Virus record (IMG/VR): IMGVR_UViG_3300035698_001574
Location: 1 to 25,272 of that record
Length of the DNA stretch: 25,272 nucleotides
From: a virus
Strand: one strand, 5' to 3'
Shown here: positions 1,218-22,157 of the stretch, piece after piece
Numbering within the stretch: position 1 is the first letter of the stretch
Layout: every line of letters begins with the position of its first letter
Translations under genes and position numbers: made by a program
Notes under the pieces: generated by a model
Told to the model about the DNA's origin: nothing
Seen by the model: the letters and a program-made list of their open reading frames with translations, nothing else
Databases searched by the model: none

Positions 1218-1325
1218 TACTCTCTCTTATATATTAAAAAATTATATATTAAAAAATTATATATTAAGTACTCCCTCTTATATACTAAAAAAATTATTAG
1301 GTACTTCTTATATACTAAAAAATTA
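1218..1325. repeat. A+T-rich direct repeats in the divergence region
   Basis: A 15-bp unit TTATATATTAAAAAA stands in tandem at 1227-1241 and 1242-1256, with a partial third copy at 1257-1267. A larger imperfect unit begins with GTACT (about 1218, 1268 and 1301), each time followed by a pyrimidine stretch and CTTATATA(T/C)TAAAAAA. The segment is almost pure A/T, with poly-A runs spaced roughly one to two helical turns apart, and would be easily melted and probably bent. Together with the iteron-like repeats at 1555-1642 it is the best candidate for an unwinding element of a replication origin. No ORF crosses it. Confidence 0.75.
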
Positions 1326-1357
1326 TAGACCATATATATATATTAAAAAAATTATAG

Positions 1358-1456
1358 ACTAAAAAATAATTTTAAAAATTTATCATACTACTACCCCTAC
1401 TACTTCTACTACTACTATTACCCCTACTACTACTCCAACTACTACTATTATTATTA
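1358..1456. repeat. G-free tract with CTA/ACT trinucleotide repeats
   Basis: For 99 bases the plus strand has no G. The right part is built of repeated ACT/CTA triplets interrupted by CCCC and ATT (for example TACTACTACCCCTACTACT), with two imperfect copies of about 30 bp. The complementary strand is therefore C-free and G-rich in short runs. It encodes no plausible protein on either strand. It could be a site kept single-stranded, a binding tract for a replication or transcription protein, or a slippage-prone microsatellite. Confidence 0.7.
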
Positions 1457-1554: not shown

Positions 1555-1642
1555 TTTCTCATTTCTCGTGTCCCAGTTTCTCATTATTTCGCATGACTTT
1601 TCTCATTATTTGTGTCCTAGTTTCTCGAATAATGAGAAAAGA
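1555..1642 (+). repeat. Four 22-bp-phased direct repeats (iteron-like) upstream of the RepL-like gene
   Basis: TTTCTC occurs at 1555, 1577, 1599 and 1621, exactly 22 bp apart, and three of these copies continue as TTTCTCATT. Units 2 and 3 share the 13-mer TTTCTCATTATTT. Units 1 and 3 also share a right half of the form GTGTCC(C/T)AG, agreeing at 18 of 22 positions. The fourth unit turns into an inverted repeat, TTTCTCGAATAATGAGAAA (1621-1639), ending 5 bp before the -7 element at 1645. An extra out-of-phase TTTCTC lies at 1562. Repeats of about 20-22 bp, in phase with the helix and next to the initiator gene, are the hallmark of iteron plasmids. The alternative is a multi-site operator for autoregulation; both can be true. 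Confidence 0.75.
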
Positions 1643-1652
1643 GCTATATTTG
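1621..1652 (+). promoter_or_regulatory. Promoter of the RepL-like operon, overlapped by an inverted repeat
   Basis: TATATTTG at 1645-1652 fits the Bacteroidota -7 consensus TAnnTTTG exactly. Twenty bases upstream TTTC (1621-1624) stands where TTTG is expected for -33. Transcription would begin near 1659, about 10 nt before the ATG at 1670. The palindrome 1621-1639 covers the -33 region and the spacer, so a protein bound there would occlude RNA polymerase. Confidence 0.55.
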
Positions 1653-1669: not shown

Positions 1670-2041
1670 ATGCAAGAAAAAGATGAAGTTTTTTCACCCA
1701 AACGGAGAATTATTTTACACAATCCAATTCAGTTCTTTGTCAAGACAGGACATACTAAAGGTAATATACTTTTAGGTTTTATTATTGATAGAATTAATAC
1801 AAGGAACTACAAATTTAGCTTTAATAGAGATGATAAGCAGTATTTAGCTGATCAACTTAGTGTTTCACCTGCTACTGTAGGTAGAATGGTTACTGAGTTA
1901 GTTAAGTTAGAACTATTGATAAAGAGAGCTAATGGTTCTTATTACATTAATCGTAAGTTTATTGAGATACAATTTGGAGATACGCATAATGTAAACATAG
2001 AACAAGTGTTAGAACAAACTAAATACGCATTTAAACAATAG
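1670..2041 (+). CDS. Winged-helix replication initiator/regulator, RepL-like
   Basis: I take the ATG at 1670 (MQEKDEVFSP...), giving 123 aa. The open frame extends to a GTG at 1568, but that part would translate the 22-bp repeats and the promoter and looks non-coding. Residues 10-30 are basic with beta character (KRRIILHNPIQFFVK), residues 33-42 form a hydrophobic helix, residues 56-82 form a helix-turn-helix (KQYLADQLSVSPATVGRMV), and residues 82-100 form a wing (LLIKRANGSYYINRKFI). This order and length match the RepL class of small plasmid replication proteins; the 'A-x-x-L-x-V-S-x-x-T-V-x-R' turn followed by a 'K-x-G-x-Y-x-I-N' wing is typical. It heads a six-gene operon and sits right after iteron-like repeats, so it probably binds them. 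A plain MarR-like repressor with no replication role is the alternative. From memory, RepL-type proteins are known in crAss-like phages. Confidence 0.65.
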   Translation: MQEKDEVFSPKRRIILHNPIQFFVKTGHTKGNILLGFIIDRINTRNYKFSFNRDDKQYLADQLSVSPATVGRMVTELVKLELLIKRANGSYYINRKFIEIQFGDTHNVNIEQVLEQTKYAFKQ

Positions 2042-18254: not shown

Positions 18255-21200
18255 ATGAGTGCAGATGATCGCTTTATACGTATACCGGCTCCATTAAGAG
18301 TTCAAAACGATAACCCTAAAGGCTATGTTACTGATGTAACAAACATTAAAGGTGCGCCTCAAACATTCGATACTATTACTGATCTGATTGCTTTTCATCC
18401 TGCAAGAATGTCTTTTGGTATGTTGATGACTCTTATCAACTATCCTTCTTTAAATTCTACTTCTACATATAAGCTAGTAGTAACTCCTGAAGCATTAGTA
18501 GATATTAACAATGACAGCATTGTCACTTTAGCTAATTGGACAGAGTATTTTGAACAAATTGAAATCATAAACAGAACAAATGCAGATAATGAAGCGATTG
18601 AGTATGCTCCTTCCAAAGTTGATGGTAATGCTCCTACTTTTCCGTATACTTTTGCTACAGATGCCTCTGAAGAATGGACTGCTGAATACGATGCTACTTT
18701 AGCTCACAAGTGGTACAGAATAAGAAATGATGACATAGATGCTAACAATGATCAAGTTTATGATAACTGGTCGCCTCCTATTGCCATAAAGAACAACTTT
18801 GAAGTTGGTGATTATGGAGCTAACATATTCAAACGTTTTGATGTAGTTGAGACTGTATTGACTAGTAATGCAGGAATGATATTAGATGCTACTTATGCAG
18901 TATTGACTGGTTCTGTTACTGTTAATGATACAGATTTTACAAAAGGTAAGAAATTTATAAATGCTAGTGGTAATGCATATGTATTTGGTGCAGGTGCTGA
19001 AATAAGACAAACTATTGCTGTACCTCTTAGAAACAAAGAAGACGGAACATTAAACAATGATCCTCTTACTTGGACAGATACGATACCTGCTGGTACAGAA
19101 ACTCTTTGGGTTGCTGAATCTATCAAAAATGTTTATGGTAATCTTAAAAGTGCGTGGAGAACTAAGCGCATAAAAGAGGCTGCTAACCTTATTAGATATA
19201 GCTTTAAAGCTTCACCTAGTCCAAGCACACTAGTAGGTACTGGTACTGATGCTAGTACTTCTACAGCAGGAGATATTGCTCTTGAAGCAGCAGGTTGGAA
19301 CAAGGTTTATAATGATCATACTTTTATAGCATATCGTGAAGACCTTGGTGGTGGTGTTTACTCTGTTTGGTTTATAGATAAGATCAAAGAAGAGTCTGGA
19401 GAATTTAGTGCGAATGCTTACAAGCTGTTTGATGCTACATTAATTCCCGGTGATCCTAGATTGCAACCACCTACTATTTCTGATGCTACACAAGAAGGAT
19501 GGTCTGATATTCCTTTGCTTCCTACAGCTACACAAATTAACTTTGTTAGTTTTGCTACAAAGTTTTTTAATGGTGCATTGAAATCTGTATGGTCTGATCC
19601 TGTGCCTGTTGAAGGTAGACTACAACAAATACTAAGCATTACTTCTAATGTAGGTGACGACTTTAAATATATACCTAACACAGATACTATAACTCCTACA
19701 GAAATAGTATTAACTGCAAAATTAACACAAGCTGGTGTAGATTTAACATTGATTGCAAATGTTACACTTTCTTTTATTTGGAAAAGAATTTATAATGAGG
19801 CTACTACTTTAGATGAAACAGCTACTGCTAATTCAGGAGATGATTTTTATACTTTAGGAGAATCTAGTGTTCGAGATGATGCAAATGGTGATAATATTGT
19901 AGACGATGCTGATTACAAATATGCAGGACAAAGATTAGTCGTGAAGCCTGCTGGTGTTGACGGTAATGCTGTTTTTAGATGCTATTGTACTTTAAGTTTT
20001 CCTACTGCTGACGACTTAGTTATAACTCAAGAATTTTCTATTCTTGATATAACCGATGGTCTTGACGCTAAAGATTTATCTTTACGTTCTGATAATGCTA
20101 TTACAGTAAGAGATACAGTTGGTAATGTATGGAATCCTACTTCTATAATAATTAAAGCTTTTCAAGCTAATCTAAATTTTCCTGATCTATTTTGGTATAG
20201 ATGGAATGGTTCTGCGTGGGTTGCTCTAAATCCTTTAGGTGTAGAATCTGATGCTGTTAATTTTAACGTATCAACTAATTTCTATTCAATGGCTGTAAAT
20301 CCTAATGCTATATACACGGCAGATGGTGCAGCAGAAGAAGTTAAATTTGCGGTATCTACAATAGACGGTAATCCTGACACAAGAGATAATATTACTAGCT
20401 TTACTGATACAATAACTCTTATTAAATTAGGTAGTGCAGGTATTGGTGCTGCTGGTGCAGATGCTATAGTTGCTTTACTGAGTAATGAATCTATAAATAT
20501 AGTTCTTGATGCTGTCACATTAGTTCCTTTTGCGGGCGAAATAACAAGTGTAGGAAGAATAAAAACACTTGTTAAATTATTTGATGGTGTAAATTCTAGA
20601 ATATATAATACAGATTATACCGTTACTGTATCACCTATAGCAGGAGACATTACATTTGGTGTACAAGCTAATGGAAATGATGCTGAGATTTTTGTTGCTA
20701 CTTGGGCATCAGATACTGTAACTAATAGAAACGCTACAATTACTATTACTTATAATGGTAATAATTACATTAAGGTATTTTCTGTTAGTGGTGTTAAAGA
20801 TGCACCTGGAGCTACTATACTTGATATAAATATAGACAAAGGAGTAGTTTTTGATTTTGCTGATCTTACTCCTAAAACAGTAACTGCATTATTTCTTGAT
20901 ACTAATAAAACACCTGAATTACAAACTAGTGGTTATGAGTATAAATTTACAACTAGTCTTGGTGCAACATTGCAAAATTGGAGCACCAATAGAGTTATAT
21001 CGCTTACTATTAATGACGTAAGAAATAGCACAGAGCTAATCACTCAAGTTCGATTAGAAGGAGGTGACGGTACTGTATTAAGAACTAATGTAACAAGAAT
21101 TACTGATCTTAGTGATTATTTTAAAGTTACTATGTTTACTGATGTGGATGTTGCTGCGGTAACTACTAGTCTTACTGAAGGTAAATTGCAAGCTACTTCA

Positions 21201-22157
21201 ATACCTGATGGAAATAATCCTTCTTCTCTTACAACTCTACAAGATGCTTATGGTGCTGATAAGCCTAGTATTGATATTATATGGAGAAGTACACAAGATA
21301 TATATTGGGAAAATGAAAATAATGAAATTTTTTATGCTATAGATGGTCAACCTTCAATCAATGATCCTGCTAATAGCTTTTTATGGAGTACTCCATATAG
21401 AGTTAAAGGAGAACTTGGTAGTCAAGGTGCTCCTGGTGATGATGGTGCTGATGGTGCTGATGGTGATGATGGTGCTGCCGCAGCAATATCCGTAGGTACT
21501 ACTACTACTTTACCTCCAGGTAGTAATGCTACAGTTGTTAATGTAGGAAGTTCAGCAGCAGCAATATTAAACTTTGGCATTCCTGAAGGTGCTGATGGTA
21601 TAGACGGTAGTGATGGTGATGTTGGTATTCAAGGAATACAAGGAATACAAGGAATACAAGGTGTTAAAGGAGATCAAGGAGATCAAGGTATACAAGGTGA
21701 TGCTGGTGCTGATGGTATATTAACTGGAGCTAGTGAAATATGGACTGCTCAAAGTCCGTCTACTTATGGTACAAATGGTACTTCTTCAGGTAATAGATTA
21801 GTACAACTTTATCCTACTGGAACCTTAGTTAGAAATCTTTTAGTTGATTTTGGAACATTAGTGTCAGGAACTTATTTAATTACAGTATCACATATTCAAA
21901 ATCCGGCTACTAATAAAATAGATATTTGGATTGCAGGTACTAATCATGGTTTTATATCAGCAACAGCTGGTTATGATTTGTATGCTTATGCTAAAGCAGC
22001 AAGTGGAGATGTAAATGGAGTTAATTTAGCTAACACTATACAAATTGTAACAGGAATAAATAATATTAGATATATACATGTTTTATTTGCAAAAGAAAAT
22101 TCAGGTTTTTCAGTAGCTATTATAACTTCTTCTATATCAATAATTAAATTAAACTAA
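18255..22157 (+). CDS. Giant tail fibre with collagen-like Gly-X-Y segments
   Basis: The 1300-aa product has the modular build of a host-recognition fibre. The N-terminal 100 residues (MSADDRFIRIPAPLRVQNDN...) probably anchor it. Then come repeated beta modules of fibronectin/Ig-like type, each with a 'W-x-x-x-P' or 'AWRTKRI'-like strand (YDNWSPPIAIK, LKSAWRTKRIK, LKSVWSDPVPVE), and later modules with DGLDAKDLSLRSDN and FSVSGVKDAPGATILDINID. Residues 1052-1075 and 1112-1155 are collagen-like (GADGADGDDG; GIQGIQGIQGIQGVKGDQGD), flanking a VGTTTTLPPGSNATVVNVGS module. The last 145 residues are a beta head (GTLVSGTYLITVSHIQNP...). Collagen-like stretches trimerise fibres. It starts 1 nt after the preceding stop and overlaps the next start by 1 nt. 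Confidence 0.85.
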   Translation: MSADDRFIRIPAPLRVQNDNPKGYVTDVTNIKGAPQTFDTITDLIAFHPARMSFGMLMTLINYPSLNSTSTYKLVVTPEALVDINNDSIVTLANWTEYFEQIEIINRTNADNEAIEYAPSKVDGNAPTFPYTFATDASEEWTAEYDATLAHKWYRIRNDDIDANNDQVYDNWSPPIAIKNNFEVGDYGANIFKRFDVVETVLTSNAGMILDATYAVLTGSVTVNDTDFTKGKKFINASGNAYVFGAGAEIRQTIAVPLRNKEDGTLNNDPLTWTDTIPAGTETLWVAESIKNVYGNLKSAWRTKRIKEAANLIRYSFKASPSPSTLVGTGTDASTSTAGDIALEAAGWNKVYNDHTFIAYREDLGGGVYSVWFIDKIKEESGEFSANAYKLFDATLIPGDPRLQPPTISDATQEGWSDIPLLPTATQINFVSFATKFFNGALKSVWSDPVPVEGRLQQILSITSNVGDDFKYIPNTDTITPTEIVLTAKLTQAGVDLTLIANVTLSFIWKRIYNEATTLDETATANSGDDFYTLGESSVRDDANGDNIVDDADYKYAGQRLVVKPAGVDGNAVFRCYCTLSFPTADDLVITQEFSILDITDGLDAKDLSLRSDNAITVRDTVGNVWNPTSIIIKAFQANLNFPDLFWYRWNGSAWVALNPLGVESDAVNFNVSTNFYSMAVNPNAIYTADGAAEEVKFAVSTIDGNPDTRDNITSFTDTITLIKLGSAGIGAAGADAIVALLSNESINIVLDAVTLVPFAGEITSVGRIKTLVKLFDGVNSRIYNTDYTVTVSPIAGDITFGVQANGNDAEIFVATWASDTVTNRNATITITYNGNNYIKVFSVSGVKDAPGATILDINIDKGVVFDFADLTPKTVTALFLDTNKTPELQTSGYEYKFTTSLGATLQNWSTNRVISLTINDVRNSTELITQVRLEGGDGTVLRTNVTRITDLSDYFKVTMFTDVDVAAVTTSLTEGKLQATSIPDGNNPSSLTTLQDAYGADKPSIDIIWRSTQDIYWENENNEIFYAIDGQPSINDPANSFLWSTPYRVKGELGSQGAPGDDGADGADGDDGAAAAISVGTTTTLPPGSNATVVNVGSSAAAILNFGIPEGADGIDGSDGDVGIQGIQGIQGIQGVKGDQGDQGIQGDAGADGILTGASEIWTAQSPSTYGTNGTSSGNRLVQLYPTGTLVRNLLVDFGTLVSGTYLITVSHIQNPATNKIDIWIAGTNHGFISATAGYDLYAYAKAASGDVNGVNLANTIQIVTGINNIRYIHVLFAKENSGFSVAIITSSISIIKLN
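21624..21659 (+). repeat. 9-nt tandem repeat coding Gly-Ile-Gln in the fibre
   Basis: GGAATACAA is repeated exactly three times (21633-21659), preceded by the variant GGTATTCAA (21624-21632) and followed by related GGxGATCAA units. It encodes the (Gly-Ile-Gln) part of the second collagen-like segment. Three consecutive identical 9-mers amid otherwise synonymous variation point to recent expansion, so copy number may vary between relatives. Confidence 0.8.

Follow-up and report, generated by a model that had tools for sequence, protein, structure and literature searches.

Tandem repeats with a 22-bp period lie ahead of the gene that opens the terminase-side operon of a crAss-like phage fragment, and they raise the question of whether this locus is a plasmid-like replication origin, an operator of the adjacent gene, or both. 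The original prediction read it as an iteron-type replicon of a RepL-like initiator, or at least as a multi-site operator. We analyzed the whole stretch of DNA (25,272 bases, hereafter the window) and the corresponding divergent regions of its relatives.

The divergent region and its repeat array

From its predicted proteins, the window is assigned as a fragment of a diverged Crassvirales branch. Its terminase (TerL) and portal match crAss-type PHROGs at E<1e-75, and its major capsid protein matches Pfam Crass_capsid at E=1.3e-66. Against the best-ranked named crAss-like phages its terminase reaches about 35% identity at most, and against the nearest IMG/VR relatives about 40%; the nearest capsids are 50% identical. 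A virulent appearance and the lack of an integrase had been offered as evidence of lifestyle; we dropped both arguments, the sequence being only a 25-kb fragment. The window also contains a large gene (18255-22157) with short-period coding tandem repeats, 9-bp based and collagen-like, at 21426-21701.

Genes are oriented leftward up to 1124 and rightward from 1670, and both arms share the intervening region (Table 1). The GC-skew switch anticipated at this position is present, with the fragment's cumulative minimum at 1626, as would be expected of a replication origin. This minimum is not specific to the array, however: skew goes with gene orientation throughout the crAss-like phages, and in crAss001 opposite gene orientation is accompanied by a skew switch (PMC6235969). 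Within the region, AT content reaches 80-85% at 1200-1399, about 180 bp from the 22-bp array.

Table 1. Features of the divergent region and of the genes discussed (window coordinates except for the G003 gene; a dot marks features without strand)
Feature	Position	Strand	Remark
Divergent intergenic region, both arms	1125-1669 (545 bp)	.	Cumulative GC-skew minimum inside
AT-rich 15/29-bp tandem repeats, possible unwinding element	1227-1378	.	80-85% AT
TAC-rich simple repeat	1386-1447	.	Same divergent region as array
Direct copy 1, 13-bp site TTTCTCATTTCTC, 2 mismatches	1555-1567	+	Sequence and motif search
Direct copy 2, TTTCTCATTATTT	1577-1589	+	Repeat and motif search
Direct copy 3, TTTCTCATTATTT	1599-1611	+	Full 22-bp unit 1599-1620, 18/22 against unit 1
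Perfect 14-bp inverted repeat, 17-nt spacer	1597-1641	.	Arms 1597-1610 and 1628-1641, beside promoter
Inverted copy 4, TTTCTCATTATTC on minus strand	1627-1639	-	Motif search
Bacteroidetes-type -7 box (putative), TATATTTG (TAnnTTTG)	1645-1652	+	25 bp before ATG at 1670; adjoins inverted copy 4 and dyad
123-aa winged-helix DNA-binding protein (predicted), RepL/MarR-like	1670-2041	+	First gene of TerL-side operon
RepL-like 179-aa gene heading TerL arm of relative G003	L092, 5279-4599	-	Pfam RepL 20.0 bits; motif YWINPHFFFKGNR

The 22-bp repeat array is real and beyond chance. TTTCTC recurs at 1555, 1577, 1599 and 1621 with an exact 22-bp period; units 2 and 3 have a 13-mer in common and units 1 and 3 are identical at 18 of 22 positions, all as first described. 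Unit 2 keeps the first half of the 22-bp unit and not the second, and an additional, overlapping TTTCTC occurs at 1562. Of the four direct repeats originally proposed, three stand, but unit 4 agrees with the others at only 9 of 22 positions and the real fourth copy is inverted. A motif search of both strands recovered three direct 13-bp copies and one inverted copy, a result that none of 300 shuffles scored as well, and copies 3 and 4 together form a perfect 14-bp dyad. When the region was shuffled 1000 times with dinucleotides preserved, no shuffle attained the 22-bp four-unit statistic (1.42). The chance expectation of the spaced triple TTTCTC pattern in the window is 0.00, and full unit 3 is unique in the 25 kb at up to three mismatches, its sole match being itself. 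AT-rich and TAC tandem repeats in the neighbourhood might suggest low-complexity drift in an AT-rich intergenic region; with 0/1000 and 0/300 shuffles, and with a unit that is not simple sequence, this reading is hardly credible.

The array lies beside a putative promoter. We take TATATTTG to be the TAnnTTTG form of the Bacteroidetes -7 box, with TTTC at 1621-1624, 20 nt upstream, as a possible -33 half. By itself TAnnTTTG occurs often in the window, 43 times where 33 are expected, and the weight of this box therefore rests on its position. The dyad folds strongly (ssDNA z = -3.2; -17 kcal/mol for the hairpin as RNA), which could point to an RNA hairpin in the 5' leader. Transcription from the box at 1645, though, would begin near 1659 and so leave the hairpin upstream of the start; the hairpin does not include direct copies 1 and 2; and an Rfam search gave no match. 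We consider an RNA hairpin very unlikely, and rejected it as the main function.

A RepL-like winged-helix protein

The original prediction likened the first gene product to RepL-type initiators. The winged helix held up: the 123-aa protein has weak Pfam matches to MarR, RepL, DtxR-type and Crp families, and modelling from an alignment of two sequences produced a modest winged-helix core, for which the PDB matches were CAP, MarR and DtxR (single-sequence folding gave no usable model, pLDDT 52). The likeness to RepL is weak, at 17.8 bits for PF05732 against a cutoff of 20.3. The corresponding proteins of two relatives score 13.8 (G005) and 20.0 (G003), so that every RepL score is under the cutoff, which counts against an initiator at a replication origin; in favor of one, 30 control proteins from the general crAss winged-helix family, typified by cr118_1 gp64, gave no Pfam RepL match at E<=0.1. 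In RepL proteins an N-P-x-x-x-F-x-G motif follows the winged helix; the window protein has YYINRKFIEIQFGDTHN, without the P, and G003 a fuller form of the motif.

When the window and G005 proteins were compared as a profile (hhalign), plasmid RepL matched at 91.8% and the gp64 family at 84.4%. The first value would likewise favor an origin, but the plasmid RepL profile is small, built from five plasmid RepL proteins, and against it part of the general crAss winged-helix family comes near the score of the window protein. A tblastn search of plasmids with the window protein returned nothing significant; one of its 11 matches was an annotated RepL, that of Butyrivibrio pOM1 (E=1). No close relative of the protein was found in IMG/VR (peptide seeds) or among phage records. 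By these profiles, the protein is RepL-like and not a certified RepL.

The cr118_1 gp64 protein, annotated as a transcriptional regulator, resembles the window protein in its related winged helix (hhalign 84%) and in lying in the same operon region. It differs in its place further down the operon and in the absence of Pfam RepL matches from 30 members of its family, and G005 carries both kinds. The window holds no further copy.

Analogous repeats in diverged relatives

We chose G003 as a test of the pattern because, in the RepL profile search, its protein and that of the window held neighbouring ranks. Upstream of its RepL-like gene, TTTTGCA occurs at -141, -89 and -37 with an exact 52-bp spacing; the copy at -37 abuts TATATTTG at -30, and TTTGCAAA overlaps TATATTTG. 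These sites are weakly beyond chance (9/500 shuffles) and statistically the weakest case, and the 13-mer test was not significant in G003. In G006, whose head gene encodes 162 aa, two copies of TGTAGGAAATCTACA and a degenerate third lie upstream at spacings of 30 and 31 bp, the third overlapping TATATTTG at -25. G005 is headed by a 102-aa winged-helix protein, 27% identical over the core to the window's (E 4e-4), and carries ACTGTCA...TGATAGT four times, at 249, 274, 299 and 632; three copies are 25 bp apart, and that at 632 lies 30 bp ahead of the head-gene ATG. Repeated or inverted sites that abut or overlap the gene's promoter, as an operator should have, were thus found in the window, G003 and G006.

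The head proteins appear very diverged in sequence. Those of G003 and G006 match each other (91%); G006 had no detectable similarity to the window protein and is linked to it through G003 only, and the G005 and G006 proteins as queries retrieved only themselves. A 13-mer statistic, with 20 shuffles per region, was applied to 37 distinct divergent regions. Besides the window, G005 alone was above every shuffle in this run; the window's own score came from its AT-rich repeats, the 22-bp array having been tested on its own, and G006 was mis-delimited in the run and above every shuffle in a dedicated test. None of the other 34 relatives' divergent regions, which come from genomes with no such head gene recognized by eye and by non-exhaustive profile searches, had an array above its shuffles. 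Across IMG/VR, the DNA pattern of the window's array gave seven chance matches, none near crAss genes. In the window, G003, G005 and G006, then, a head-of-operon winged-helix gene is preceded by repeats that are specific to each genome and differ among them. The relatives' spacings of 25, 30/31 and 52 bp leave no general rule in the earlier argument that a 22-bp period places bound proteins on the same helix face.

A probable operator and a possible origin

At the least, the array is most likely an autoregulatory operator of the 1670-2041 gene, judging from the arrangement of sites and promoter. We put at roughly 0.7 the probability that it comprises predicted binding sites of the adjacent protein, with autoregulation. 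The protein would occupy the three direct copies and the inverted copy; since the inverted copy lies between the possible -33 half and the -7 box of the gene's putative promoter, binding there would control this gene and thereby also entry into the structural arm. Both the identity of the binder and the protein's regulation of its own promoter are inferred. The cognate-site reading follows from the repeats changing sequence between genomes while staying beside the same kind of gene and promoter. The multi-site operator of the original prediction has good support from the inverted copy next to the promoter and from analogous repeats before the syntenic gene in three relatives.

The binder could instead be a host or other phage factor. 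Factors encoded elsewhere often control phage promoters, and both arms depend on the divergent region; the array might thus be an operator for a host regulator, a phage RNA polymerase or another early regulator, independently of the adjacent gene. This is unlikely: the repeats accompany the head-of-operon winged-helix gene in four genomes and vary by genome, as expected of a co-evolving cognate protein and not of a conserved host factor.

A replication origin of a phage-plasmid state would be compatible with autoregulation by the adjacent protein and does not exclude it, and we regard it as a tentative reading, short of even odds. Here the RepL-like protein would act as initiator on the direct copies, the AT-rich tandem repeats would melt, and the inverted copy would autoregulate the gene. 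Inverted operator copies and an AT-rich flank are typical of iteron plasmids, an anatomy that the locus parallels, although its AT-rich stretch lies about 180 bp away from the repeats, and the array presents the tandem direct repeats of about 17-22 bp beside a rep-like gene by which an iteron replicon is recognized. The staphylococcal Rep_3 iteron plasmid pSK639 likewise has five 22-bp tandem direct repeats at its rep promoter, with suspected autoregulation; its initiator, however, is a 287-aa protein with a Rep_3 domain (PMC5703833), whereas the 123-aa window protein has one winged helix and no match to Rep_3 (PF01051) at E<=1. Plasmids of the pSN2 family share the RepL-like winged helix and its G-x-Y-x-x-N wing, but they are rolling-circle replicons with a nicked double-strand origin, for which the source consulted describes no tandem iterons (PMC5703833), and the window protein aligns to the RepL core only. 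An iteron RepL replicon, as first proposed, mixes two replicon types, RepL initiators being rolling-circle and iteron initiators Rep_3.

Within Crassvirales, the nearest likeness is Carjivirus, which has an annotated RepL-type initiator with one of two copies near the divergence of the arms. Two repL copies are known in p-crAssphage (PMC7551546, PMC10136315). Two reviews report a phage-plasmid lifestyle for Carjivirus communis, which favors an origin here, and 19 further repL-bearing candidates (PMC11652158, PMC11844821); one of them notes that repL, being divergent, is possibly more widespread than detected (PMC11652158). In our Carjivirus-type comparison genome, CrAssphage LMMB, the repL genes (184 and 251 aa) belong to the replication arm, whereas the window gene heads the TerL arm. 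Pairwise BLAST detected no similarity between the LMMB repL products and the window protein, and no comparable phased array lies upstream of the annotated LMMB repL genes, which weighs against an origin. An inverted pair, ATACTCCCCGTGGAGGAT and ATCCTCCACGGGGAGTAT, about 120 bp apart, was observed upstream of an annotated LMMB repL (L099:47600-47740).

A limited search of the open-licence literature found no description of repeat arrays before such a gene. The persistence of crAss-like phages that lack integrases still calls for an explanation, and where the arms diverge, a syntenic RepL-like gene accompanied by sites of its own would offer a concrete locus for the control of both persistence and the structural arm, extending the relevance of RepL-like loci to branches of Crassvirales beyond Carjivirus. 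It is doubtful that a diverged RepL-like initiator heads the structural operon with fast-turnover, iteron-like sites serving as both origin and late-arm switch; if true, one protein would couple plasmid-like maintenance to the lytic decision.

Separately, the leftward arm carries a 41-bp intergenic element, AAACTCAATAACTTYCCAAGACATTGAGGRCACCAGTTTCT, on the minus strand at 366-406 of the window; it was also found at L002:3565, at L004:4745 and in L184-L188. Three IMG/VR contigs hold exact copies, and 14 named crAss-like records across Suoliviridae and Steigviridae carry the element at about 83-93% identity to the window. The terminases of these records are only about one-third identical to the window's, and the flanks of the element are not conserved. 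Rfam searches of the element gave no match. Its plus strand spells a CTCAAT..ATTGAG-type stem and then T6, and the element is a candidate small RNA or terminator, early promoter or packaging site.
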